A stretch of DNA of 8,280 bases, from NCBI GenBank assembly GCA_036562265.1, contig DATCKS010000299.1, forward strand, positions 1 to 8,280. The letters are read 5' to 3'. Source of the stretch: DASVDK01 sp036562265 [NCBI: Thermodesulfobacteriota bacterium] (lineage in GTDB: Bacteria > DASVDK01). Positions 1 to 8,280 of this stretch are shown in pieces. Made by a program: the position numbers and the translations under genes. Every line of letters starts with the position of its first letter. Position 1 is the first letter of the stretch. A model generated the notes under the pieces. That model did not search any database. It was given only the letters and a program-made list of their open reading frames with translations, and had not been told where the DNA came from.

Positions 1-1590
1 CCAGGCCTCCACGGTGGCGCGGAAGGCGGACACCATGATCCAGACCGAGACGAGCATGGCGAGGCTGACCGCCAGGGCCGCCACGGTGGCCGCGTTGCGG
101 CGAAGCCCCTGGACGAAGTGATCGGCCGCCAGGCGCGCCGCCGGCCCCCCGAGGCGGCCGACCAGCGGCCGCGCCGCGCGCCCGACCGCGAGGACGAGGA
201 TCGGCGCCACGAGGAGCGCCGCCACGATGACGACGAGGGCCGCGCCGTAGCCGCCGAGCGGCCGGCCGTGCCAGGGAGGAAGCGCCGCGAGCAGGCCGGC
301 GAGCGCGAGGATCGCGAGACCGGCCAGGGCGAGCCGCCGGGCGCGTTGCCGCCCGGCCCGACCGGCGTCGCCCGGGGCCGCGCCGAGCGCGATCGGCTCC
401 CTCGGCGGCACGCCGGCCGCGGCGCGCGCCGGCGCAAGCGCCGCCGCCGCCGACACGAGGACGCCGACGGCGACCCCGAGGAGGAGGTCTCCCGCGCCGA
501 CCCGCAACCGCTCGACCGGCGCGTGGAGGTAGAGGACCGACACGGTCCTCGCCATGGCGCCGAGCGTCCCCTTCGCGAGGGCGAGGCCGAGGAGGACGCC
601 GAGGAGCCCGCCGGCCGCGCCGTAGACGACCCCCTCGGCCAGGAAGGCCGCCTCGACGCCGCGCCGCGAGACGCCGATGGCCCGGAGGATCCCGATCTCC
701 CGGCGGCGCTGCACCACGGAGAAGGTGAGCGTGTTGTACACGAGGAGGACGCCGACCAGGAGCGCGATGAGGGAGAGGATCGTCAGGTTGAGCTGGAAGG
801 CGTCGAGCATCTGGTCGACCTGACCGCTCCGCTCGATGGGCCGGTCGACGACCACGCCGTCGGGCAGCGCCGCGGCGAGGCGCGCGCGCACGGCATCGGC
901 GTCCGCCCCCTCGCGGAGGGTGAGCGCCACGGCGTCGAGGCGTCCCACGCGGTCCAGGAGCGGCTGGGCCGCCGCGAGGTCCATGACCGCCACCGTCCGC
1001 TCGAGGAAGCCCGACGCGCTGCCGCCCCGCTCGCCCTCCGCCTCGGCCGGCACGAGGAGGCCCCGGATGCGCAGCGACACGCGCCGCGAGCCGGCGAGGA
1101 CCTCGAGGCGATCGCCGACGCGCAGCCCGCGCCCCTCCGCGAAGCGCTGCGTGACGAGGAGGGCGTCGTCCTCGCCGAGGAAGCCCCCGTCCTCGCCGTC
1201 GCCGCCCGCCGCGTCGATCGACGCGGTCGTCGGGCGCGAACTGAGGACGTCGATGCCGTAGACGAGGAGGATCTCCCGCGCCGCGTCGGCGGTGACGACG
1301 GTCCCCACCACCTGCGGCTCGGCGCGGGCGACCGCCGGGTCGGCCTCGATGCGCGGCAGGAGGGTCTCGTCGAGGCCGAAGCCGGGTCGCGAGACGGTCA
1401 ACTGGGCGCTCCCGGCGAAGAGGTCGAGGCTCGTGGCGAACGCCTCGGTGATGCTCACGTTGGCGAGCCGCACCGCGAGGAACACGCCGACGCCGATGGC
1501 GATGCCGGCCAGGGTGAGGAGGCTTCGCCCCTTGTGCGCCGCCAAGGACGGCCAGGTGACGCGACGGACCAGCGCCGGAAGCCCCTTCAT
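1..1590 (-). CDS. FtsX-like ABC transporter permease (MacB/LolC/LolE type), C-terminus cut by window edge
   Basis: Inner-membrane permease of an ABC transporter of the MacB/LolCDE superfamily. These typically work by mechanotransmission, moving lipoproteins, lipids or drugs out of the inner membrane; the substrate here cannot be read. I translated the reverse strand by hand: 530 codons are open with no stop down to base 1. TM1 is at about residues 23-42, followed by a periplasmic MacB-type domain (about 45-265). Three more helices follow (about 267-289, 316-340, 366-388) with the FtsX motif RRREIGILRAIG at 295-306. Two further helices lie at about 420-470, and the start of a second FtsX unit at about 500-524 (LRRNAATVAAL). 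This points to a duplicated, roughly 800-residue 10-helix permease of which the end is missing. The ATG overlaps the TGA of the ATPase gene (ATGA, 1587-1590), so translation is probably coupled. No good Shine-Dalgarno is visible. Confidence 0.93.
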   Translation of the reverse strand, partial: MKGLPALVRRVTWPSLAAHKGRSLLTLAGIAIGVGVFLAVRLANVSITEAFATSLDLFAGSAQLTVSRPGFGLDETLLPRIEADPAVARAEPQVVGTVVTADAAREILLVYGIDVLSSRPTTASIDAAGGDGEDGGFLGEDDALLVTQRFAEGRGLRVGDRLEVLAGSRRVSLRIRGLLVPAEAEGERGGSASGFLERTVAVMDLAAAQPLLDRVGRLDAVALTLREGADADAVRARLAAALPDGVVVDRPIERSGQVDQMLDAFQLNLTILSLIALLVGVLLVYNTLTFSVVQRRREIGILRAIGVSRRGVEAAFLAEGVVYGAAGGLLGVLLGLALAKGTLGAMARTVSVLYLHAPVERLRVGAGDLLLGVAVGVLVSAAAALAPARAAAGVPPREPIALGAAPGDAGRAGRQRARRLALAGLAILALAGLLAALPPWHGRPLGGYGAALVVIVAALLVAPILVLAVGRAARPLVGRLGGPAARLAADHFVQGLRRNAATVAALAVSLAMLVSVWIMVSAFRATVEAW

Positions 1591-2288
1591 CGCGCGACGG
1601 CCGCCGCGTCCTCGACGACCTCGCCGTCGCGCATGCGGACCACCCGGTCGGCCGCGGCCGCCACCTCGGGGCTGTGGGTCGCGAGGATGACCGTGCGCCG
1701 CCCGTCGCGCGCCAGTCCGGCGAAGAGCGCCGTCAGGGCCTGCGAGGCGCGGGTGTCGAGGTTCCCGGTCGGCTCGTCGCCGAGGAGGAGCGGCGGGTCG
1801 TTCGCCAGGGCGCGCGCGACCGCCACCCGCTGCTGCTCGCCCCCCGAAAGCTGCGCCGGCCGGTGTCCCGCCCGGTGGGCGAGGCCGACCTCCTCGAGGA
1901 GGCGAGCGACGCGCTCGCGCACGGCGGCGGCCGGCCGGCCGTCGATCTGCATCGGAAGCGCGACGTTCTCCGCGACCGTCAGGCTCGGCAGGAGGTTGAA
2001 GAACTGGAACACGAAGCCGACCGTCCGCCGGCGGTAGCGGGTCAGCGCGTCGTCGTCGAGCGCGCCGAGCGAGACGCCGCCCACGACGATCTCGCCGCGG
2101 GTCGGCCGATCGAGGGCGCCGATGAGGTTGAGGAGGGTCGACTTGCCGCAGCCCGACGGCCCCACGAGCGCGAGGAACGTCCCCGGCGCGACGTCGAGGC
2201 TCACGCCGCGTACCGCCTCCACCCTGAGATCCCCCGACAGGTACACCTTGCTGACGTCGCGGACGGAGACGGCGGGCTCGAGCGGCAC
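1587..2288 (-). CDS. ABC transporter ATP-binding protein (MacB/LolD family)
   Basis: Cytoplasmic ATPase that powers the permease encoded immediately downstream. The 233-residue length is normal for LolD/MacB nucleotide-binding subunits. Visible motifs: Walker A GPSGCGKST at 43-51, Q-loop Q95 in FVFQFFNLLP, signature LSGGEQQ at 147-153, Walker B LLLGDEP at 167-173 with catalytic E172, D-loop at about 176-178, and switch H205 in ATHS. The QFFNLLPSLTVAENV stretch is typical of this subfamily. The frame stays open far upstream, but family homology begins right after a GTG at 2288 (MPLEPAVSVRDVSKVY), so I chose that start. No Shine-Dalgarno precedes it; instead a TACACT box ends 6 bases before the GTG, suggesting a leaderless mRNA. 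The gene is divergent from the sulfite oxidase unit. The substrate is unknown. Confidence 0.95.
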   Translation of the reverse strand: MPLEPAVSVRDVSKVYLSGDLRVEAVRGVSLDVAPGTFLALVGPSGCGKSTLLNLIGALDRPTRGEIVVGGVSLGALDDDALTRYRRRTVGFVFQFFNLLPSLTVAENVALPMQIDGRPAAAVRERVARLLEEVGLAHRAGHRPAQLSGGEQQRVAVARALANDPPLLLGDEPTGNLDTRASQALTALFAGLARDGRRTVILATHSPEVAAAADRVVRMRDGEVVEDAAAVAR

Positions 2289-2294
2289 GCGGGA

Positions 2295-2300
2295 AGTGTA
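2295..2300 (-). promoter_or_regulatory. Candidate -10 box (TACACT) for the ABC operon, leaderless geometry
   Basis: Read on the minus strand, TACACT (preceded by C) ends 6 bases before the GTG start at 2288. A start site about 7 bases downstream of the box falls on the GTG itself. I see no good -35 hexamer at 16-18 bases; the nearest TTGCCA is 24 bases upstream. The same box, spacing and lack of a Shine-Dalgarno recur before queF and the DUF72 gene, which is the main support. Confidence 0.5.
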
Positions 2301-2337
2301 GCAGGGCCGCCTCGTGCCGGCGGTTGGCAAACGCTGG

Positions 2338-2343
2338 TATACT
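2338..2343 (+). promoter_or_regulatory. Candidate -10 box (TATACT) for the sulfite oxidase-cupredoxin unit
   Basis: TATACT matches 5 of 6 bases of the sigma-70 -10 consensus and lies 32 bases before the ATG at 2376. The predicted start site, near 2350, gives a leader of about 26 bases that contains the GGGAGGA ribosome binding site at 2363-2369. No convincing -35 is seen at normal spacing; the TTGGCA at 2324-2329 is only 8 bases upstream, too close to pair with it. Confidence 0.45.
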
Positions 2344-2359
2344 GGTCTTCGAGACCAGT
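2341..2359. repeat. Perfect 8-bp inverted repeat at predicted start of transcription
   Basis: Arms ACTGGTCT (2341-2348) and AGACCAGT (2352-2359) are exact reverse complements around a 3-base TCG centre. The dyad overlaps the end of the TATACT box and the predicted start site of the sulfite oxidase unit, and lies between the two divergent operons. That is where a repressor operator would sit. It could instead form a 5' hairpin in the mRNA; there is no T-run, so it is not a terminator. Confidence 0.45.
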
Positions 2360-2375
2360 CGTGGGAGGACGCGTC

Positions 2376-3617
2376 ATGCCGCACCGGCTCGAGCGAGACC
2401 TCGTCGACCCGCAAACGTACCGCCTGGTCCGCACCGACGAATACCTCTGGCGCGAAGCCCGCGCCCTCGGGGTGTCGCGCCGCCGCCTGCTCGGCCTCGC
2501 AGCCGCCTCGGCCGGTCTGGCCGCAGGGCTGGGGCTTCGGCCCTCCCGCGCGGCGGCGGGCGAGGCGGCGAGCCCGGTCGTCAAGGCCGCGCCGCCGGAA
2601 CTCTTCAACCGGTACGGCAGCAACCTCGAGATGCGCTGGGAGCAGATGTACGGCCGCGGCTACGTGGTGCCGAACGGGCTCTTCTTCGTTCGCAACCACA
2701 CGAAGACGCCGCAGATCGAGGCCGGTACCTGGACGCTGACCGTCGACGGCAGCGGCGTCTCGAAGCCGCTCACCCTGACCTACAACGACCTCCTCAAGCT
2801 CCCCTCGGTCTCGGTCGTGCGCTACGTCGAGTGCGCCGGCAACGGCCGCAGCTTCTTCGAGCAGGCGTACGGCAAGCGGGCGCAGGGGACGCAGTGGAAG
2901 CTCGGCGCCGTCGGGGTCGCCGAGTGGACGGGCGTGCGCCTTTCCGAGATCCTCGATCGTGCCGGCGTGAAGCCGACCGCGCGCGACGTGATGCCGGCCG
3001 GCCTCGACGACCTCAAGGTGCGCCGCCCGATGCCGATCGCCAAGGCGATGGCCGACGACACGCTCGTCGTCTACGCCATGAACGGCGAGACCCTCCCGCC
3101 CGACCACGGCTTCCCGGCCCGGCTCCTCGCGCCCGGCTGGATCGGCGTCCAGAACGTGAAGTGGCTCGGCCGCATCGAGGTGTCGGACGAGCCGCTCTTC
3201 TCGCCCTGGAACACCGACAGCTACGTCCTGATCGGCCCCGACTACCAGGCGCAGCCGCCGTCCAAGGGGCCGGTGCTCACGTCGCAGAACGTCAAGAGCG
3301 CCCTCGAGTTCGCCTGGGACGCGCGCGTGCCGGCGGGCCGCTACGTGCTGACGGGGCGAGCCTGGGCGCCCGCGAGGATCGCGAAGGTGGAGGTGAGCGT
3401 CGACGGCGGGCCGTGGCAGATCGCCTCGCTCGGCGAGCCGAACATCGCCGGCGCCTGGGTGCGGTTCCGGTTCGACTGGGACGCGCGCCCCGGCCGGCAC
3501 GCCATTCGCCTGCGCGCCACCGACGAGGCCGGCAACACGCAGCCCGAACGGGTGCCGTGGAACGACCAGGGCTACCTCTACAACGGCGTGGTCGAGCACC
3601 CGATCACGGTCACCTAG
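2376..3617 (+). CDS. Tat-exported sulfite oxidase-family molybdopterin oxidoreductase
   Basis: Periplasmic or extracytoplasmic molybdenum enzyme, probably a sulfite dehydrogenase (sulfite to sulfate, two electrons passed on), 413 residues. A 33-residue N-terminal stretch precedes the twin-arginine motif SRRRLLG (34-40) and a hydrophobic alanine-rich segment to about 62, as expected for folded export by Tat. The Mo-cofactor domain shows VRNH at 105-108, the cysteine that coordinates Mo (C153 in YVECAGNGR), HGFPARLLAPGW at 244-255 and VKWLGRI at 261-267. The C-terminal dimerisation domain spans about 305-413 (SVDGGPWQ, ATDEAGNTQP). No haem domain is present, so electrons must leave to a separate partner, plausibly the cupredoxin encoded next. 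The ATG at 2376 has GGGAGGA 6 bases upstream; homology and the Tat motif begin after it. The exact substrate is inferred from family only; SoxC-like or related activities are possible. Confidence 0.93.
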   Translation: MPHRLERDLVDPQTYRLVRTDEYLWREARALGVSRRRLLGLAAASAGLAAGLGLRPSRAAAGEAASPVVKAAPPELFNRYGSNLEMRWEQMYGRGYVVPNGLFFVRNHTKTPQIEAGTWTLTVDGSGVSKPLTLTYNDLLKLPSVSVVRYVECAGNGRSFFEQAYGKRAQGTQWKLGAVGVAEWTGVRLSEILDRAGVKPTARDVMPAGLDDLKVRRPMPIAKAMADDTLVVYAMNGETLPPDHGFPARLLAPGWIGVQNVKWLGRIEVSDEPLFSPWNTDSYVLIGPDYQAQPPSKGPVLTSQNVKSALEFAWDARVPAGRYVLTGRAWAPARIAKVEVSVDGGPWQIASLGEPNIAGAWVRFRFDWDARPGRHAIRLRATDEAGNTQPERVPWNDQGYLYNGVVEHPITVT

Positions 3618-3622
3618 GCCGG

Positions 3623-3991
3623 ATGCGCCGTTCGCTCCGCCTGGCGGCGGCGCTCGCCGCCGTCGTGCTCCTCCTTGCCGCCGCCCCCGGCCGCGCGGCC
3701 GCGGCCGGGGGCGTCACCGTAACGGTGAAGGCGGGAGACCTCTTCTTCGATCCGAAGGCGCTCGAGGTCCCGGCCGGCGACGTGACGTTCACCGTCGTGA
3801 ACGAAGGGGCGATCGAGCACAACTTCGTCGTCCGGGACGCCAGCGGGGCCACCGTGGCCGAGATCCCGGTCATCGCCCCCGGCGCCACCGAGCGGGTCAC
3901 GGCGCGGCTCGCGGCCGGCGCCTACCGCATCGTCTGCACCTTTCCGGGCCACACCGAGGCCGGGATGACCGGGACGCTCACGGTCGAGTAG
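3623..3991 (+). CDS. Secreted cupredoxin (plastocyanin/azurin-like type 1 copper protein)
   Basis: Small blue copper protein of 122 residues, a soluble electron carrier outside the cytoplasmic membrane. A Sec signal peptide covers about 1-28 (MRRSLRL, a leucine/alanine core, then AAAAGG). The mature single-domain beta-sandwich has all four type 1 copper ligands: H66 (in EGAIEHNF), C105 (YRIVCTF), H110 (PGH) and M115. The spacing C-x4-H-x4-M is as in plastocyanin-like proteins. The gene starts 5 bases after the stop of the sulfite oxidase gene with no clear Shine-Dalgarno, so it is probably translated by coupling from the same mRNA. By analogy with sulfite dehydrogenases that donate to cytochrome c or pseudoazurin encoded beside them (e.g. 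SorT loci), it is the likely acceptor; this pairing is inference from context. Confidence 0.9.
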   Translation: MRRSLRLAAALAAVVLLLAAAPGRAAAAGGVTVTVKAGDLFFDPKALEVPAGDVTFTVVNEGAIEHNFVVRDASGATVAEIPVIAPGATERVTARLAAGAYRIVCTFPGHTEAGMTGTLTVE

Positions 3992-4070
3992 CAACGTCCG
4001 TCTCACCCCGGCCGCCGGCGTCTCACGGCGTCCGCGGTCGCCTGTCCCCTTGACACGGCCTCGACGCGCC

Positions 4071-4166
4071 TGCGAGATCTACGCCGTCGATCCCGACGGC
4101 GGCCCCGCCGTGAAGGTCACGAGCACCCCCAGGGCCCAGGAGTCTCTCACCGGCATCGTCTCCTAG
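4071..4166 (+). pseudogene. Possible remnant of a TolB/PD40-type beta-propeller protein
   Basis: One frame reads [18 protein letters not shown] and continues for 13 more residues to a TAG at 4164-4166. EIY-x-V/M-D-x-DGG followed by x-VTS-x-P is the pattern of a single TolB/PD40 propeller blade (family pattern EIYVMNADG..RLT..P). No ATG, no upstream propeller sequence and no ribosome binding site are present; the frame upstream is arginine/proline-rich and unlike a propeller. It looks like the tail of a decayed or deleted gene. Thirty-one residues are too few for certainty, and chance resemblance is possible. Confidence 0.3.
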
Positions 4167-4173
4167 CCGAAGG

Positions 4174-4203
4174 CGCGGCGCCGGTCGTCCGGCCGGCGCC
4201 GCG
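4174..4203. terminator. Strong GC hairpin, possible terminator or spacer element
   Basis: Arms CGCGGCGCCGG (4174-4184) and CCGGCGCCGCG (4193-4203) are perfect 11-bp reverse complements around an 8-base loop. It lies between the cupredoxin unit and remnant on the left and the aldo/keto reductase on the right. No T-run follows on either strand, so it is not a classical intrinsic terminator; GC-rich genomes often use such U-less hairpins. Confidence 0.45.
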
Positions 4204-4231
4204 GACGCCCTCCTCCCGGTCTCCCGCCTGC

Positions 4232-4237
4232 TACCAT
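4232..4237 (+). promoter_or_regulatory. Candidate -10 box (TACCAT) for the aldo/keto reductase
   Basis: GCTACCAT at 4230-4237 is the same sequence as the box before queF. The predicted start site near 4244 would leave a leader of about 33 bases carrying GAGGAG at 4266-4271, 5 bases before the ATG at 4277. It also argues against the in-frame GTG at 4241 as the start, since that would lie upstream of transcription. No -35 hexamer is evident. Confidence 0.4.
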
Positions 4238-4276
4238 GGGGTGCCGGCGAACCCCACGGCAATTCGAGGAGCGGAG

Positions 4277-5119
4277 ATGACCGCAAGTCGAGCGGGCACC
4301 CTGACCCTGGGCGGCGACCTCGTCGTGAACCGCATGGGATTCGGCGCCATGCGCCTCACCGGGCCTGGCGTCTTCGGCCCGCCGGCCGACCGCGACGAGG
4401 CGAAGCGCGTCCTGCGCCGTGCGCTGGACCTCGGCGTGACCTTCGTCGACACGGCCGACTCGTACGGTCCCGCCGTGTCCGAGGAGCTGATCGCCGAGGC
4501 GCTCCACCCCTATCCGCCCGGGCTCGTCATCGCCACCAAGGGGGGGCTCGAGCGGCCGGGCCCCAACCGCTGGACGCCGAACGGCCGGCCCGAGCACCTG
4601 CGCCGCGCGCTCGAGGGCAGCCTGCGGCGCCTCAAGGTCGATCGGATCGACCTCTGGCAACTCCACCGCATCGATTCGAAGGTGCCGGCCGACGAGCAGT
4701 TCGGCCTGCTGGCCGAGTTCGTGCGCGAGGGGAAGGTGCGGCACGTCGGCCTGTCGGAGGTCGGTGTCGCGGAGATCGAGCAGGCGCGCCGGGTGGTCCC
4801 GATCGCGTCGGTGCAGAACCGCTACAACGTCTTCGACCGGCAGTGGGAGGACGTGGTCGCCTTCTGCGAGCGCGAGCGGATCGCCTTCATCCCCTGGTAC
4901 CCCCTCGGCGCCGGCTCGCTCGAGACGGCGCGGCTCGAGGCGGTGGCGCGCCGGCGCGGCGCCACGCCGATGCAGGTGGCGCTGGCCTGGCTCCTCGCCC
5001 GCTCGCCGGTCATGCTGCCCATCCCGGGGACCTCGAGCGTCGCGCACCTCGAGGAGAACGTCGCCGCCGCCGCGATCGCGCTCGGCGAGGACGACCTGCG
5101 GGAGCTCGCCGGCACGTAA
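4277..5119 (+). CDS. Aldo/keto reductase family oxidoreductase
   Basis: Cytoplasmic NADPH-dependent carbonyl reductase with a TIM-barrel fold, 280 residues, typical for bacterial members. The catalytic tetrad is visible: D58 and Y63 in FVDTADSYG (56-64), K88 in ATKGG, and H130 in DLWQLHRID. Also present are GFGAMRLTG near the N-terminus, GLSEV at 158-162, SVQNRYN at 178-184 (nicotinamide stacking region), and PIPGTSS at 248-254, the C-terminal cofactor phosphate-binding loop. The pattern resembles the YajO/PdxI-like and YdbC groups; the physiological substrate is not readable. The ATG at 4277 has GAGGAG 5 bases upstream; an in-frame GTG at 4241 would add 12 residues unlike the family. The gene stands alone: a hairpin precedes it and the genes downstream are convergent. 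Confidence 0.93.
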
Positions 5120-5148
5120 CGGCGCTTCGCCCCGCCGGGCGGGCCCCA

Positions 5149-5182
5149 GGGTCGGGAGCGGACGCTCCGCGACACGCGACCC
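5149..5182. terminator. Nested hairpin between convergent genes, possible bidirectional terminator
   Basis: Outer arms GGGTCG (5149-5154) and CGACCC (5177-5182) enclose an inner stem GGAGC (5155-5159) / GCTCC (5164-5168), with an 8-base bulge on the 3' side. A further GC-rich stem, CCCGC/GCGGG, sits just before it at 5131-5143. The position between the aldo/keto reductase stop and the cysteine hydrolase stop fits a shared terminator. No T-run is present, so this rests on structure and location only. Confidence 0.35.
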
Positions 5183-5212
5183 GTGGCTCGGGTACCTGCC
5201 CGGGAAGGGCGT

Positions 5213-5887
5213 CTACGCCGGCCTCGCCGCCCGCTGCCGCTCCGCGTAGCCTGCGAACGCCCGCCCGGCCAGCACGTCCGCCGTGGACACGATGCGCACG
5301 CCCCGCTCGCGCCAGGCCTCGAGCAGGCGCGCCCCCTCGTCGGCGCGGATCGGCGCCACGGCGTCCTCGACCACGGCGATGGCGAGGCCGCCCCGGGCGA
5401 GCAGCCCCTCGACCGCGTACCGGTCGCAGACGTCGAGCGCCACGCCGTAGACGACCACCGCCTCGGGCGCGAGCGTGTCGAGCACGACGCCAACGTTCGG
5501 GTTCGTGAAGACGTCGAACTCCTCCTTGAGGAGCACGATCTCGCCCGTGTGCCGACGCACCGACTCGGCCAGCTCGTCCGGCGGGTATGGCCGGCTCTCG
5601 ATCACGAGCGGGTTGCGGGGCGCCGTGGCCGGGACCTTCTCGGCGCCCGGCGTGCCGCGCAGGCAGTGGGGCGGGAAGGTCGAGCGGAAGTCCGGCGGCG
5701 GGGTCAGCTCCCGGTGGTGCAACTCGTGCGCGTCCGCCGACGCCACGATCCGGACCCCCTCCCGCCGGGCGTACTCCGTGAGCGCGGCGAGGTTCGACAG
5801 GAGCCGCTCCGCACCCGGCACGTAGAGCTTCCCGTCCGGCATCATGAAGTCGACCTGGGTGTCGACGTCCCAGAAGATCGTCCGCAT
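5213..5887 (-). CDS. Isochorismatase-fold cysteine hydrolase, nicotinamidase-like
   Basis: Cytoplasmic amidohydrolase of the isochorismatase-like superfamily, 224 residues. The D-K-C catalytic triad is visible: D9 in DVDTQVDF, K121 in VLLKEEFDVF and C154 in GVALDVCDRYAV. The stretch SADAHELHH (50-58) with FPPHCLRGTPGAE (71-83) matches the metal site and PPHC-GTPGA loop of nicotinamidases: D52, H54, H57 or H58, and H74. This makes nicotinamide to nicotinate (NAD salvage) the best guess, though the family also includes ureidoacrylate and other amidases. The ATG at 5887 has a strong GGAGGAGA (5892-5899) just upstream. It is the last gene of the minus-strand cluster, 13 bases after the AlaX gene, so it is probably cotranscribed. 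Substrate assignment is inference. Confidence 0.9.
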   Translation of the reverse strand: MRTIFWDVDTQVDFMMPDGKLYVPGAERLLSNLAALTEYARREGVRIVASADAHELHHRELTPPPDFRSTFPPHCLRGTPGAEKVPATAPRNPLVIESRPYPPDELAESVRRHTGEIVLLKEEFDVFTNPNVGVVLDTLAPEAVVVYGVALDVCDRYAVEGLLARGGLAIAVVEDAVAPIRADEGARLLEAWRERGVRIVSTADVLAGRAFAGYAERQRAARPA

Positions 5888-5900
5888 CGCGTCTCCTCCG

Positions 5901-6626
5901 CTACGCCGGGGGCTCGACCGGGTCGAGCCCGATCCGGAGTCGCTTGTTGATCCTGCCCTTGCTCTCGTGGCCGATCACCCGCACGTTTCCCACCTCGCGC
6001 GTCGAGCGGACGTGCGTGCCGCCGTCGGCCTGAAGGTCGAGGCCGGCGATCTCCACCACGCGCACCTGCGTGATCCCCTCGGGCAGCAGGTTCACCTTCG
6101 TGCGGATCAGGTCCGGGATCGCGAAGGCCTCCTCGCGCGGCAGGATCCGCACGGAGATGGGGCGATCGGCCGCCACTTCGGCGCGGAGCTTGGCGTCGAT
6201 CTCCTCCTTGAAGGAGGCGCTCATCGATTCCAGCTCGAAGTCCATCCGCGCCTCGAGCGGCTTCATGTTCCCGCCCGTCACGCGGGCCCCGTAGTCGCGG
6301 AAGATGACGGCCGCGAGCATGTGGAGCGCCGTGTGCGTGCGCATGAGGGCGTAGCGCCGGGCCCAGTCGATCTCGCCGCGCACGCGGCTGCCGACCGGCG
6401 GCAGGCCGCCCGCGAGACGGTGGAGGTACCGGCCGTCCCGCTTCACCACCTCGACCACCTTCGCCTCGCCGCCGTCCCAGGTGAGCGTCCCCTCGTCGTG
6501 CGGCTGCCCGCCCGCCGTGGCGTAGAAGACCGTGCGGTCGAGGACCACGGCGTCGCCGACGACCTCGACCACGGAGGCGTCCATCGTGCGCGCGTAGCTG
6601 TCGGTCTGATGGATGAGCTCGGTCAT
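5901..6626 (-). CDS. alaX: AlaX-type alanyl-tRNA editing protein
   Basis: Free-standing trans-editing hydrolase related to the editing domain of alanyl-tRNA synthetase; it removes serine or glycine wrongly attached to tRNA-Ala in the cytoplasm. At 241 residues it matches the medium-length AlaX class: an N-terminal beta domain with FYATAGGQP (34-42), then the editing domain. Zinc-site motif one is RTHTALH (H98, H102). Motif two, usually CGGTH, reads QADGGTHV (199-206), so the usual cysteine is D201, with H205 kept. RSTREVGNVRV follows as in AlaRS. The ATG at 6626 has GGAGGAGGAGG upstream, so it is efficiently translated within the operon. It lies 18 bases after the DUF72 gene and 13 before the hydrolase. 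It lacks the aminoacylation and anticodon domains, so it is not a truncated AlaRS. Confidence 0.92.
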   Translation of the reverse strand: MTELIHQTDSYARTMDASVVEVVGDAVVLDRTVFYATAGGQPHDEGTLTWDGGEAKVVEVVKRDGRYLHRLAGGLPPVGSRVRGEIDWARRYALMRTHTALHMLAAVIFRDYGARVTGGNMKPLEARMDFELESMSASFKEEIDAKLRAEVAADRPISVRILPREEAFAIPDLIRTKVNLLPEGITQVRVVEIAGLDLQADGGTHVRSTREVGNVRVIGHESKGRINKRLRIGLDPVEPPA

Positions 6627-6644
6627 CGCCCTCCTCCTCCGCCG

Positions 6645-7571
6645 TCACAGGAGCCGCCCCTGGCCCTTCGGCCCCGCCAGAGGCACCCGGCCCTCGAGGA
6701 CCGGGTAGTGCTCGACCAGGGTCGGCTCGCAGGCGGCGCGGAGCGGCTGGCCGAGCTTCGGCTTCATCATCAGCGCGTTGGCCACCGACGCGCCGCGGAA
6801 GTGATTGTTGAAGTAGACGTAGACCCGTTCGGCCCGGTCCGAGGCGCCGAGGATCGCGTCGACGAACGAGTCGAGCTCGTCGTCCGAGTACAGGTAGTGG
6901 TAGCGCTCCGGCCCGGCGTCCTTCTTCCACCAGGCCTCGGCGTTGCGGCCGTGGAACCGGAAGTAGCCGATACCCCCGCGCACCGCCAGCGGTTGCCGCA
7001 CCGAGGTTGCGAACTTCGGCTCGTCGATCTGCGCCCACCCGGCCCGGTGCCGCAGGAGCAGCTCCTCCGTCGCCTCCTCCGCGTCGCTCCAGGAGCGGTG
7101 GCGCAACTCGACCGTCACCGGGAAGTCCGCGAGCGCCGTGAGGAGGCCGTCCAGCATCCGCTCCGACTCGGGCGTCCGCTTGAAGGACGCGGGGAACTGC
7201 GCGAGCACGCTCCCCAGCTTGCCCGCCTCGGCCAGGGGGGACACGGAGCGCTTGAAGGCGTCGAGATCGTCGCGCACGACGGCGGCCGGCTTTCCGGTGG
7301 CCGCCTCGTACATCTTCGGGTGCGTGAACTTCTGGTAGAGCTTGACCGAGAAGTCGAAGCGGTCGGGCGTCCTCGCCGCCCAGGCCTGCGTCGTCTCGGG
7401 CGGCACCTGCCGGTAGAAGGTGACGTTCACCTCCACCGTGTCGAAGCGCTCGGCGTAGTACGCCAGCTCGTCCTTCGTGCCGCGGGGATAGAACACCCCG
7501 GTCCAGCGGTCGTCGCCGCGTGGGTAGTGCCAGCCGGAGGTGCCGACGCGGATCCGCTCGGGGCGAGGCAT
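6645..7571 (-). CDS. DUF72 family protein (YecE-like TIM barrel)
   Basis: A DUF72/YecE family member of 308 residues. The family has a TIM-barrel fold and its biochemical role is not established. Family hallmarks in order: VGTSGWHYP (9-17), FYPRG (27-31), FDTVEVNVTFYR (43-54), FDFSVKLYQKFTH (72-84), AQFPASF (124-130, usually GQFPPSF), VELRHRSW (154-161), YFRFHGRN (203-210) and YVYFNNHFRGASVANA (251-266). The last motif, with its asparagines and histidine, forms the conserved C-terminal end of the barrel in relatives. The ATG at 7571 agrees with the family start. It has no good Shine-Dalgarno, but TACAAT ends 6 bases upstream, so the gene may be transcribed on its own as a leaderless mRNA as well as with queF, whose stop is 25 bases upstream. 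The AlaX gene follows after 18 bases. Confidence 0.93.
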   Translation of the reverse strand: MPRPERIRVGTSGWHYPRGDDRWTGVFYPRGTKDELAYYAERFDTVEVNVTFYRQVPPETTQAWAARTPDRFDFSVKLYQKFTHPKMYEAATGKPAAVVRDDLDAFKRSVSPLAEAGKLGSVLAQFPASFKRTPESERMLDGLLTALADFPVTVELRHRSWSDAEEATEELLLRHRAGWAQIDEPKFATSVRQPLAVRGGIGYFRFHGRNAEAWWKKDAGPERYHYLYSDDELDSFVDAILGASDRAERVYVYFNNHFRGASVANALMMKPKLGQPLRAACEPTLVEHYPVLEGRVPLAGPKGQGRLL

Positions 7572-7577
7572 GCCCTG

Positions 7578-7583
7578 ATTGTA
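7578..7583 (-). promoter_or_regulatory. Candidate -10 box (TACAAT) for the DUF72-AlaX-hydrolase genes, leaderless geometry
   Basis: Read on the minus strand, CTACAAT matches 5 of 6 bases of the -10 consensus and ends 6 bases before the ATG at 7571. It sits in the 25-base gap after queF, so it would be an internal operon promoter. The position of a -35 at normal spacing falls in the end of queF and reads GGAGGG, so no -35 is supported. Confidence 0.5.
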
Positions 7584-7596
7584 GTCCGCGGCGCGC

Positions 7597-7956
7597 CTAC
7601 CCCTCCTTGCGGTAGGTGGCGGTCACGACCGTGTGGATGCCGCCCCGGACGTTGAAGTCCCCGATGACGGTCATCTCGCGCGGCTGGACGGCCGCCACCA
7701 GGTCGTCGAGGATCCGGTTGGTCACCGCCTCGTGGAACGCCCCCTCGTCGCGGAACGACCAGAGGTAGAGCTTCAGGCTCTTCAGCTCGACGCAGGTCCG
7801 GTCCGGGACGTAGCGGATCCGGATCGTGGCGAAGTCGGGCTGCCCGGTCATCGGGCAGACGCAGGTGAACTCCGGGCACTCGAAGCTGATCTCGTAGGGC
7901 CGCTCCGGCTTCGGGTTCGGAAAGGTCTGAAGCTCCTTGCTGGGACGGGTCGGCAT
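7597..7956 (-). CDS. queF: NADPH-dependent 7-cyano-7-deazaguanine reductase (preQ0 to preQ1)
   Basis: Cytoplasmic nitrile reductase of the T-fold superfamily that converts preQ0 to preQ1, the free base inserted into tRNA on the way to queuosine. Its 119 residues match the short unimodular QueF class. The catalytic region [12 protein letters not shown] (34-45) gives nucleophile C34 and proton donor D41. The QueF NADPH motif ELKSLKLYL is at 57-65. FHEAV (74-78) supplies the substrate-binding H75-E76 pair. The frame stays open far upstream, but homology starts just after the ATG at 7956 ([15 protein letters not shown]), so I chose that one. A TACCAT box ends 6 bases before it and there is no Shine-Dalgarno. 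No other queuosine genes (queC, queD, queE, tgt) are in the window. It is the first gene of the minus-strand tRNA-related cluster. Confidence 0.96.
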
Positions 7957-7962
7957 GGCGAG

Positions 7963-7968
7963 ATGGTA
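7963..7968 (-). promoter_or_regulatory. Candidate -10 box (TACCAT) for queF, leaderless geometry
   Basis: On the minus strand GCTACCAT ends 6 bases before the queF ATG, placing the predicted start site on the A of ATG. Only a weak TTTCGA about 14 bases upstream resembles a -35. If the mRNA is leaderless, no preQ1 riboswitch can precede queF. Confidence 0.5.
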
Positions 7969-8037
7969 GCGCACCGCCGGCGTCGAAACGTGCGGTGCAG
8001 CGCGCGGCCGATCGATCTCGCGCATGACGGAAAGGCG

Positions 8038-8066
8038 TTGACGTGCCGAGAGCGTCCGCATAGATT
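8038..8066 (+). promoter_or_regulatory. Sigma-70-type promoter driving the right-end fragment
   Basis: TTGACG (8038-8043) is followed after exactly 17 bases by TAGATT (8061-8066): five of six matches at -35 and four of six at -10, at ideal spacing. The predicted start is near 8073. This is the only place in the window with a full -35/-10 pair. It is divergent from queF. Confidence 0.5.
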
Positions 8067-8084
8067 GCGCGTCGCCGGAACGGT

Positions 8085-8104
8085 CCCTGCTCATCCGAGC
8101 AGGG
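8085..8104. other. Perfect 8-bp hairpin in the leader of the TRL-like fragment
   Basis: CCCTGCTC (8085-8092) and GAGCAGGG (8097-8104) pair perfectly around an ATCC tetraloop. It starts about 12 bases after the predicted transcription start and ends 3 bases before a GTG at 8108. The 3' arm includes AGCAGGG, the only Shine-Dalgarno-like sequence for that GTG, so the hairpin could hide it. No T-run follows. Confidence 0.45.
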
Positions 8105-8107
8105 TCG

Positions 8108-8280
8108 GTGTCTCCCGGTCGCTCACAACAGTCCTTCTTCGCCCTCATCGCCACCGGTGATGCGAGCATCGCCGCGGCCAAGGCCAACGGCGGCATCACC
8201 GAGGTGTCGGCCGTCGATCACACGGCCAGGAACATCCTCGGCATCTACGGGGAGTTCTGCACGATCGTGAAGGGGCGTTA
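8108..8280 (+). pseudogene. C-terminal fragment of a TRL-family protein, N-terminus missing
   Basis: The frame reads [16 protein letters not shown], then [19 protein letters not shown] and IYGEFCTIVKGR, ending with TA at the window edge, which would be a stop if the next base is A or G. This strongly resembles the C-terminal half of the TRL (tRNA-associated locus) family of small secreted or lipoprotein-like proteins, whose function is unknown. Family members are about 100 residues with a signal peptide. Here the frame is closed by TGA at 8039-8041 and has no ATG between it and the homology. The only reasonable start is the GTG at 8108, giving about 57 residues with no signal peptide. It is most likely a truncated gene; a short expressed protein is possible because a promoter lies just upstream. 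No tRNA gene is visible beside it. Confidence 0.55.

Follow-up and report, generated by a model that had tools for sequence, protein, structure and literature searches.

Positional evidence for leaderless starts at three genes of a high-G+C bacterial contig

What places the same promoter-like hexamer at exactly the same short distance from the start codons of three genes? The question is raised by a stretch of DNA of 8280 bases and 73% G+C from the bacterium DASVDK01 sp036562265 (contig DATCKS010000299.1, positions 1 to 8,280), the whole of which is referred to below as the window. Nine genes with a start codon inside the window were counted, their products being assigned from Pfam. Three of them, encoding an ABC transporter ATPase, a DUF72 protein and a QueF-like protein, have a TACNNT hexamer that ends six bases before the start codon. 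We conclude that these hexamers are very probably -10 elements so placed that the RNA begins with the first base of the start codon, yielding leaderless mRNAs, a reading that is drawn from sequence position.

Three boxes at one distance from the start codon

Inspection of the minus strand reveals TACACT at 2295-2300 before the GTG (position 2288) of the ATPase gene (PF00005; 1587-2288), TACAAT at 7578-7583 before the ATG (7571) of the DUF72 gene (PF01904; 6645-7571), and TACCAT at 7963-7968 before the ATG (7956) of queF (PF14489; 7597-7956). Each -10-like box is separated from its start codon by exactly 6 bases (hereafter a gap of 6) and is directly preceded by C, just as a preliminary description of this DNA had reported, although the range named there, 7578-7968, spans two boxes only and the third lies at 2295-2300. 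The pattern CTACNNT-N6-RTG matches three times in the window, always at a gene start, where 0.04 matches are expected from shuffles, and three sites were reached in 0 of 200 shuffles. TANNNT itself is rare in the window, with 10 occurrences on both strands versus 20.5 expected. All three start codons begin with a purine (ATG or GTG), none of the three genes has a Shine-Dalgarno sequence, and the ATPase box is preceded by TGC, which resembles the TGn of an extended -10 element.

Under the leaderless reading, RNA polymerase, most likely carrying the housekeeping sigma factor, would recognise TACNNT helped by little or no -35 element, open the DNA and begin the transcript with the A or G of ATG or GTG, 7 bases past the box. 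The resulting mRNA would have neither a leader nor a Shine-Dalgarno sequence, and the ribosome would engage its 5'-terminal start codon directly, while the other genes of the window would be translated from a leader with a Shine-Dalgarno sequence or through translational coupling. We infer the RNA start site, the sigma factor and the mode of ribosome loading from the position of the boxes, and all three genes are predicted to be leaderless on that basis.

The boxes might instead be chance TANNNT hexamers, with the real promoters farther upstream and translation proceeding without a Shine-Dalgarno sequence or by coupling. Such an account would fit the lack of a -35 element at any of the three boxes, and it would fit the DUF72 gene, which starts 25 nucleotides behind the queF stop codon and could ride on the queF transcript; its box is 13 nucleotides from that stop codon, so a -35 element at the usual spacing would fall inside queF, and the gene is not clearly operon-first. 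It would also fit the frequency of starts that lack a Shine-Dalgarno sequence in the seven genomes described below, which by a 4-mer test reaches 448 of the 800 starts for which neither gaps 6-10 nor gaps 19-40 hold a box. The shared spacing speaks otherwise: for three of nine starts to carry a box at one gap within 6-10 has a probability of about 2e-7, a figure that assumes 0.8 per 1000 per gap and ignores the picking of the pattern after looking. That spacing, which the preliminary description had found hard to credit to chance, is also the mode among 998 starts of other genomes, and there is no further TANNNT within 55 bases upstream of the ATPase, DUF72 or queF start. We consider chance hexamers a highly improbable explanation.

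Distance from box to start in seven other genomes

The preliminary description had named a sharp peak at a gap of 6, confined to operon-first genes, as the signature of its model. TANNNT was counted upstream of predicted starts in seven genomes (G289, G238, G337, G277, G387, G285 and G260) selected by QueF identity of 74-87%. All came from one phylum draw and were picked by that identity and for convenient contigs, not randomly; genomes of comparable QueF identity, such as G346, G403 and G247, lie outside the sample. From each genome 100 to 400 kilobases were read, with G387, G285 and G260 each represented by a single contig. Genes were predicted by a hexamer model using no upstream signal; those cut by the end of a stretch or starting less than 80 nucleotides from one were dropped (for G289, 231 were predicted and 221 used), and the remaining 998 starts were pooled. 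Two genomes of a Chloroflexota draw, G011 (66 starts) and G194 (161 starts), were run and excluded from the pool.

Across the pooled starts, gaps 0 to 11 hold 3, 1, 0, 1, 3, 0, 29, 12, 15, 12, 8 and 4 TANNNT hexamers, respectively. The onset is abrupt, from none at gap 5 to 29 at gap 6, and the mode is the very gap seen three times in the window. Gaps 6-9 together hold 68 boxes, compared to 8.7 expected from the flanking gaps and 20.1 expected from gaps 20-69, and TAnnnT is the most over-represented pattern of the form XYnnnZ at gap 6 (29 seen, 4.9 expected). Controls did not reproduce the peak. Gap 6 holds 29.1 boxes per 1000 starts versus 0.8 per 1000 at internal in-frame ATG or GTG codons (n=15,520), which show no peak and stay at 0.1-1.4 per 1000 throughout gaps 0-24. 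Likewise, Escherichia coli, with a box at gaps 6-9 in 1 of 79 starts, and G194, a genome of 65% G+C with 0 of 161, show no peak, and G011 has a box at these gaps in 2 of 66 starts. The peak that the preliminary description anticipated is present in the pooled starts of these seven genomes, selected through QueF, but it is not confined to operon-first genes, as detailed below. In total, 75 of the 998 starts have a box at gaps 6-10, a raw frequency that is probably diluted by errors in start placement.

The distance from TANNNT to start looks bimodal in the pooled starts, with the peak at 6-10, few hexamers at 11-20 and a second rise at 21-24 (10, 8, 12 and 9). This hints at an avoided zone at gaps 11-20, corresponding to leaders of about 5-14 nucleotides, between leaderless starts and leaders of Shine-Dalgarno length.

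Sequence around the 75 near boxes (gaps 6-10) was compared with that around distant boxes or other starts. A TGn extension precedes 20 of the 75 near boxes versus 29 of 242 boxes at gaps 11-59, and a -35 match of at least 5 of 6 positions accompanies 6 of 75 near boxes versus 14 of 998 over all starts at the same offsets. Both features are enriched at near boxes, as promoters should show. In contrast, the preceding C that had been counted into the signal shows no enrichment, standing before 26 of 75 near boxes versus 70 of 242 distant ones. The missing Shine-Dalgarno sequence had been presented as a further hallmark, and it is indeed missing from all three box genes of the window. In the seven genomes it is present in 7 of 75 box genes versus 429 of 923 others when the box is left unmasked; with the hexamer masked, however, 4 of 75 were seen against 7.2 expected, such that the lack is mostly a matter of the geometry of the box position and does not count as independent evidence. 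For comparison, where a box lies at gaps 19-40 a Shine-Dalgarno sequence is present at 77 of 123 starts, and where neither gaps 6-10 nor gaps 19-40 hold a box, at 352 of 800.

These distances also bear on whether the boxes are real promoters whose transcripts begin a few bases earlier or later than the start codon, giving very short leaders or none. Use of gaps 7-10 in other genomes would agree with such imprecision, since they account for 47 box positions versus 29 at gap 6. The abrupt onset between gaps 5 and 6 would not, nor would the placement of all three window genes at gap 6. The choice of start codon points the same way. In the leaderless model the RNA opens with the start codon, whose first base should then be a purine, so TTG is not expected; TTG starts occur in 0 of 75 box genes versus 77 of 923 genes without a box (p = 0.003), a difference that may in part mean better-placed starts in the box genes, as TTG may be frequent among misplaced starts. 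Near-leaderless transcripts of this kind thus appear unlikely, and transcription beginning on the start codon itself remains the preferred reading.

Operon position and the queF and DUF72 loci

The preliminary description had gone further and divided two initiation modes by operon position, with operon-first genes leaderless and internal genes led by a Shine-Dalgarno sequence. This strict division would be an addition to the leaderless reading and not an alternative to it. In the seven genomes, divergent starts have a box in 42 of 306 cases and starts that follow a same-strand gene after at least 100 nucleotides in 9 of 249; the figures are 14 of 176 for ambiguous starts and 10 of 267 for starts at most 40 nucleotides behind a same-strand upstream gene, and genes missed by the finder may blur the four classes. 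First-type starts are richer in boxes than close same-strand starts (51 of 555 versus 10 of 267, p = 0.004), most visibly among divergent genes, which lends the division some credit. Nevertheless, close same-strand starts do carry boxes, and same-strand starts after a long interval are no richer in them. Operon position shifts the odds of a box but does not dictate it.

The window itself is no kinder to a strict division, since its starts fall into four groups. The ATPase, DUF72 and queF genes, with a box at gap 6 and no Shine-Dalgarno sequence, form the first. The second comprises two plus-strand genes that serve as contrast cases with both a leader and a good Shine-Dalgarno sequence, namely a sulfite-oxidase-like molybdopterin oxidoreductase (PF00174, PF03404; 2376-3617; GGAGGA), with TATACT at 2338-2343 on the plus strand, 32 bases before its ATG, and an aldo/keto reductase (PF00248; 4277-5119; GAGGAG), with TACCAT at 4232-4237 on the plus strand, 39 bases before its ATG. 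The third holds two minus-strand genes with a good Shine-Dalgarno sequence and no box, encoding an AlaX-like alanyl-tRNA editing protein (PF01411, PF07973; 5901-6626; AGGAGG), third in the run that begins with queF, and an isochorismatase-like hydrolase (PF00857; 5213-5887; GGAGGAG). The Shine-Dalgarno sequences that the preliminary description had assigned to the genes of the second and third groups were found in all four. Its two classes of start are nonetheless incomplete, as it passed over a fourth group with neither a box nor a Shine-Dalgarno sequence at the usual distance, whose genes start at or within 5 nucleotides of the preceding stop codon: a MacB/FtsX-like ABC permease (1-1590, minus strand, cut by the window edge), whose start overlaps the ATPase stop codon, and a cupredoxin (PF13473, PF00127; 3623-3991, plus strand), a coupled contrast case 5 nucleotides past the sulfite oxidase stop codon, for which no Shine-Dalgarno sequence was found.

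Several of these genes sit on the wrong side of a strict division. The DUF72 box lies before a gene 25 nucleotides behind queF, and the permease and cupredoxin genes are internal yet are without a Shine-Dalgarno sequence at the usual distance. Conversely, the sulfite oxidase and aldo/keto reductase genes have a leader and a Shine-Dalgarno sequence with no close same-strand gene before them, the cupredoxin gene ending 285 nucleotides before the aldo/keto reductase on the same strand. A strict operon rule is accordingly very unlikely, and we reject it as contradicted by the operon-position counts; the bias remains.

Upstream of the sulfite oxidase gene, an inverted repeat at 2341-2359, whose two perfectly matched 8-bp arms (ACTGGTCT/AGACCAGT) flank a 3-nucleotide loop, overlaps the end of the TATACT box and the probable transcription start, and is a candidate operator or 5' mRNA hairpin.

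Conservation of the boxes was then considered at queF and DUF72 loci of other genomes. Loci were kept at identities of at least 55% (queF) or 44% (DUF72), with the alignment starting by residue 15, 66 nucleotides available upstream and a distinct sequence, and several candidate start codons per locus were allowed (78 for 56 queF loci and 95 for 68 DUF72 loci). In 25 of the 56 queF loci a plausible start has a box 6-10 bases upstream, with 9, 2, 5 and 9 boxes at gaps 6, 7, 8 and 9, respectively, and at most one at any gap in the ranges 0-5 and 10-22. This proportion stands beside 75 of 998 starts overall, a comparison between sets counted in different ways, in which the queF loci also share ancestry among themselves. 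Two queF loci of the Chloroflexota draw (L101 and L102) have TACACT 9 bases before the start, and in three others of that draw (L097-L099) a box much like it sits farther upstream, with AGGAGGA before the start; from these sequences, queF seems to use either initiation mode. At DUF72, 16 of the 68 loci have a box, including L031, L039 and L074 with the same TACAATGGCGC and start.

It is conceivable, though we hold it as doubtful, that leaderless initiation is favoured at queF in distant lineages and that the DUF72 box marks a second, nested leaderless start after it. If so, the DUF72 protein would come solely from its own transcript, with little obtained by read-through from queF, and a tight run of genes would be uncoupled at translation.

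Several of the queF loci L080-L094 share TGTCAA upstream of the queF box at a variable distance. As the motif reads TTGACA on the other strand and its distance varies, it suggests the -35 element of a divergent promoter.

A number of observations weigh against leaderless starts at the three genes, in addition to the possible effect of start placement on the TTG counts. The best TTGACA match 15-19 nucleotides before each window box is 2 of 6 positions. The peak is uneven among genomes, with a box at gaps 6-9 in 18 of 221 starts in G289, 15 of 130 in G337, 17 of 271 in G277, 7 of 72 in G285 and 4 of 67 in G260, and in only 3 of 127 in G238 and 4 of 110 in G387. The gene finder, checked on one of two 50-kilobase E. 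coli stretches, recovered 39 of 45 annotated genes, missed 6 and placed only 26 of the 39 recovered starts exactly. The comparison genomes are distant: no match above 55% identity to the DUF72 or sulfite oxidase protein was found among the sequences searched. The closest QueF, at 87%, is that of G289, the next being at 80% and below, and the DUF72 and sulfite oxidase matches in G289 reach only 38% and 39%; G289 moreover has no box before its own queF. Finally, the DUF72 pattern is weak, as matches at other gaps are common across the 68 loci. Of the preliminary description, then, the leaderless promoter itself is supported by the gap-6 onset in seven genomes, the lack of TTG starts and the recurrence at queF, and the operon split, the missing Shine-Dalgarno sequence and the preceding C no longer contribute to it.

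On the minus strand the gene order is queF, DUF72, AlaX-like and isochorismatase-like hydrolase, such that the DUF72 gene adjoins the AlaX-like gene (5901-7571). The DUF72 similarity search returned 78 loci, mostly from acidobacterial and chloroflexotal metagenome-assembled genomes, with a best segment of 55% identity; an AlaX match of 33-46% identity is present somewhere within 15 of these loci. A recurrent pairing of DUF72 with an alanyl-tRNA editing protein is possible. No relatives of the sulfite oxidase or DUF72 proteins were found among the viral contigs searched. Short stretches at 4065-4165 and 8100-8280 may be the ends or remnants of further plus-strand genes.

Relation to known leaderless genes

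Leaderless initiation with an adjacent -10 element is already established, and here it is described in one more bacterium. In high-GC bacteria, TA-led (leaderless) genes are marked by a TAnnnT-like signal that lies about 10 bp ahead of the start (Zheng et al. 2011, PMC3160421), the signal type being the same as that found in 75 of 998 starts (gaps 6-10) in the genomes sampled here. Table 2 of that paper gives a mean of 13.3% leaderless genes in Acidobacteria (3 of 3 genomes) and 4.7% in Chloroflexi (4 of 12 genomes), and operon structure is discussed there as a driver of leaderless genes. Leaderless transcription is predicted in 21.6% of the bacterial species of a representative set (PMC9581028).

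The preliminary description had cited a similar layout in Deinococcus. In Deinococcus radiodurans TANNNT lies predominantly about 6-7 bp upstream of the open reading frame and its commonest form is TACACT, the ATPase box of the window; the published spacing (PMC12340547) bears the citation out. In that work the motif was mutated to test its role as a -10 region, and too short a distance led to aberrant expression (PMC12340547), whereas the present case is built on sequence, and the motif is rarer in the genomes sampled here than among D. radiodurans genes. In Mycobacterium tuberculosis, mapped leaderless transcripts have a TANNNT -10 element without a conserved -35 element, and 85% of transcription starts are purines (PMC3898074); TGN precedes 7% of TANNNT promoters in that organism, in contrast to 20 of 75 near boxes here. 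We found no literature on leaderless transcription in Rokubacteria, and no start-site mapping in Acidobacteria appeared among the matches listed, which is no proof of its absence.

The peak is positional evidence, in largely metagenome-assembled genomes, for a share of leaderless genes with an abrupt six-base minimum between box and start codon. In the annotation of such genomes, TANNNT six bases before an ATG or GTG would point to the true start, and the absence of a Shine-Dalgarno sequence would be no argument against a gene.
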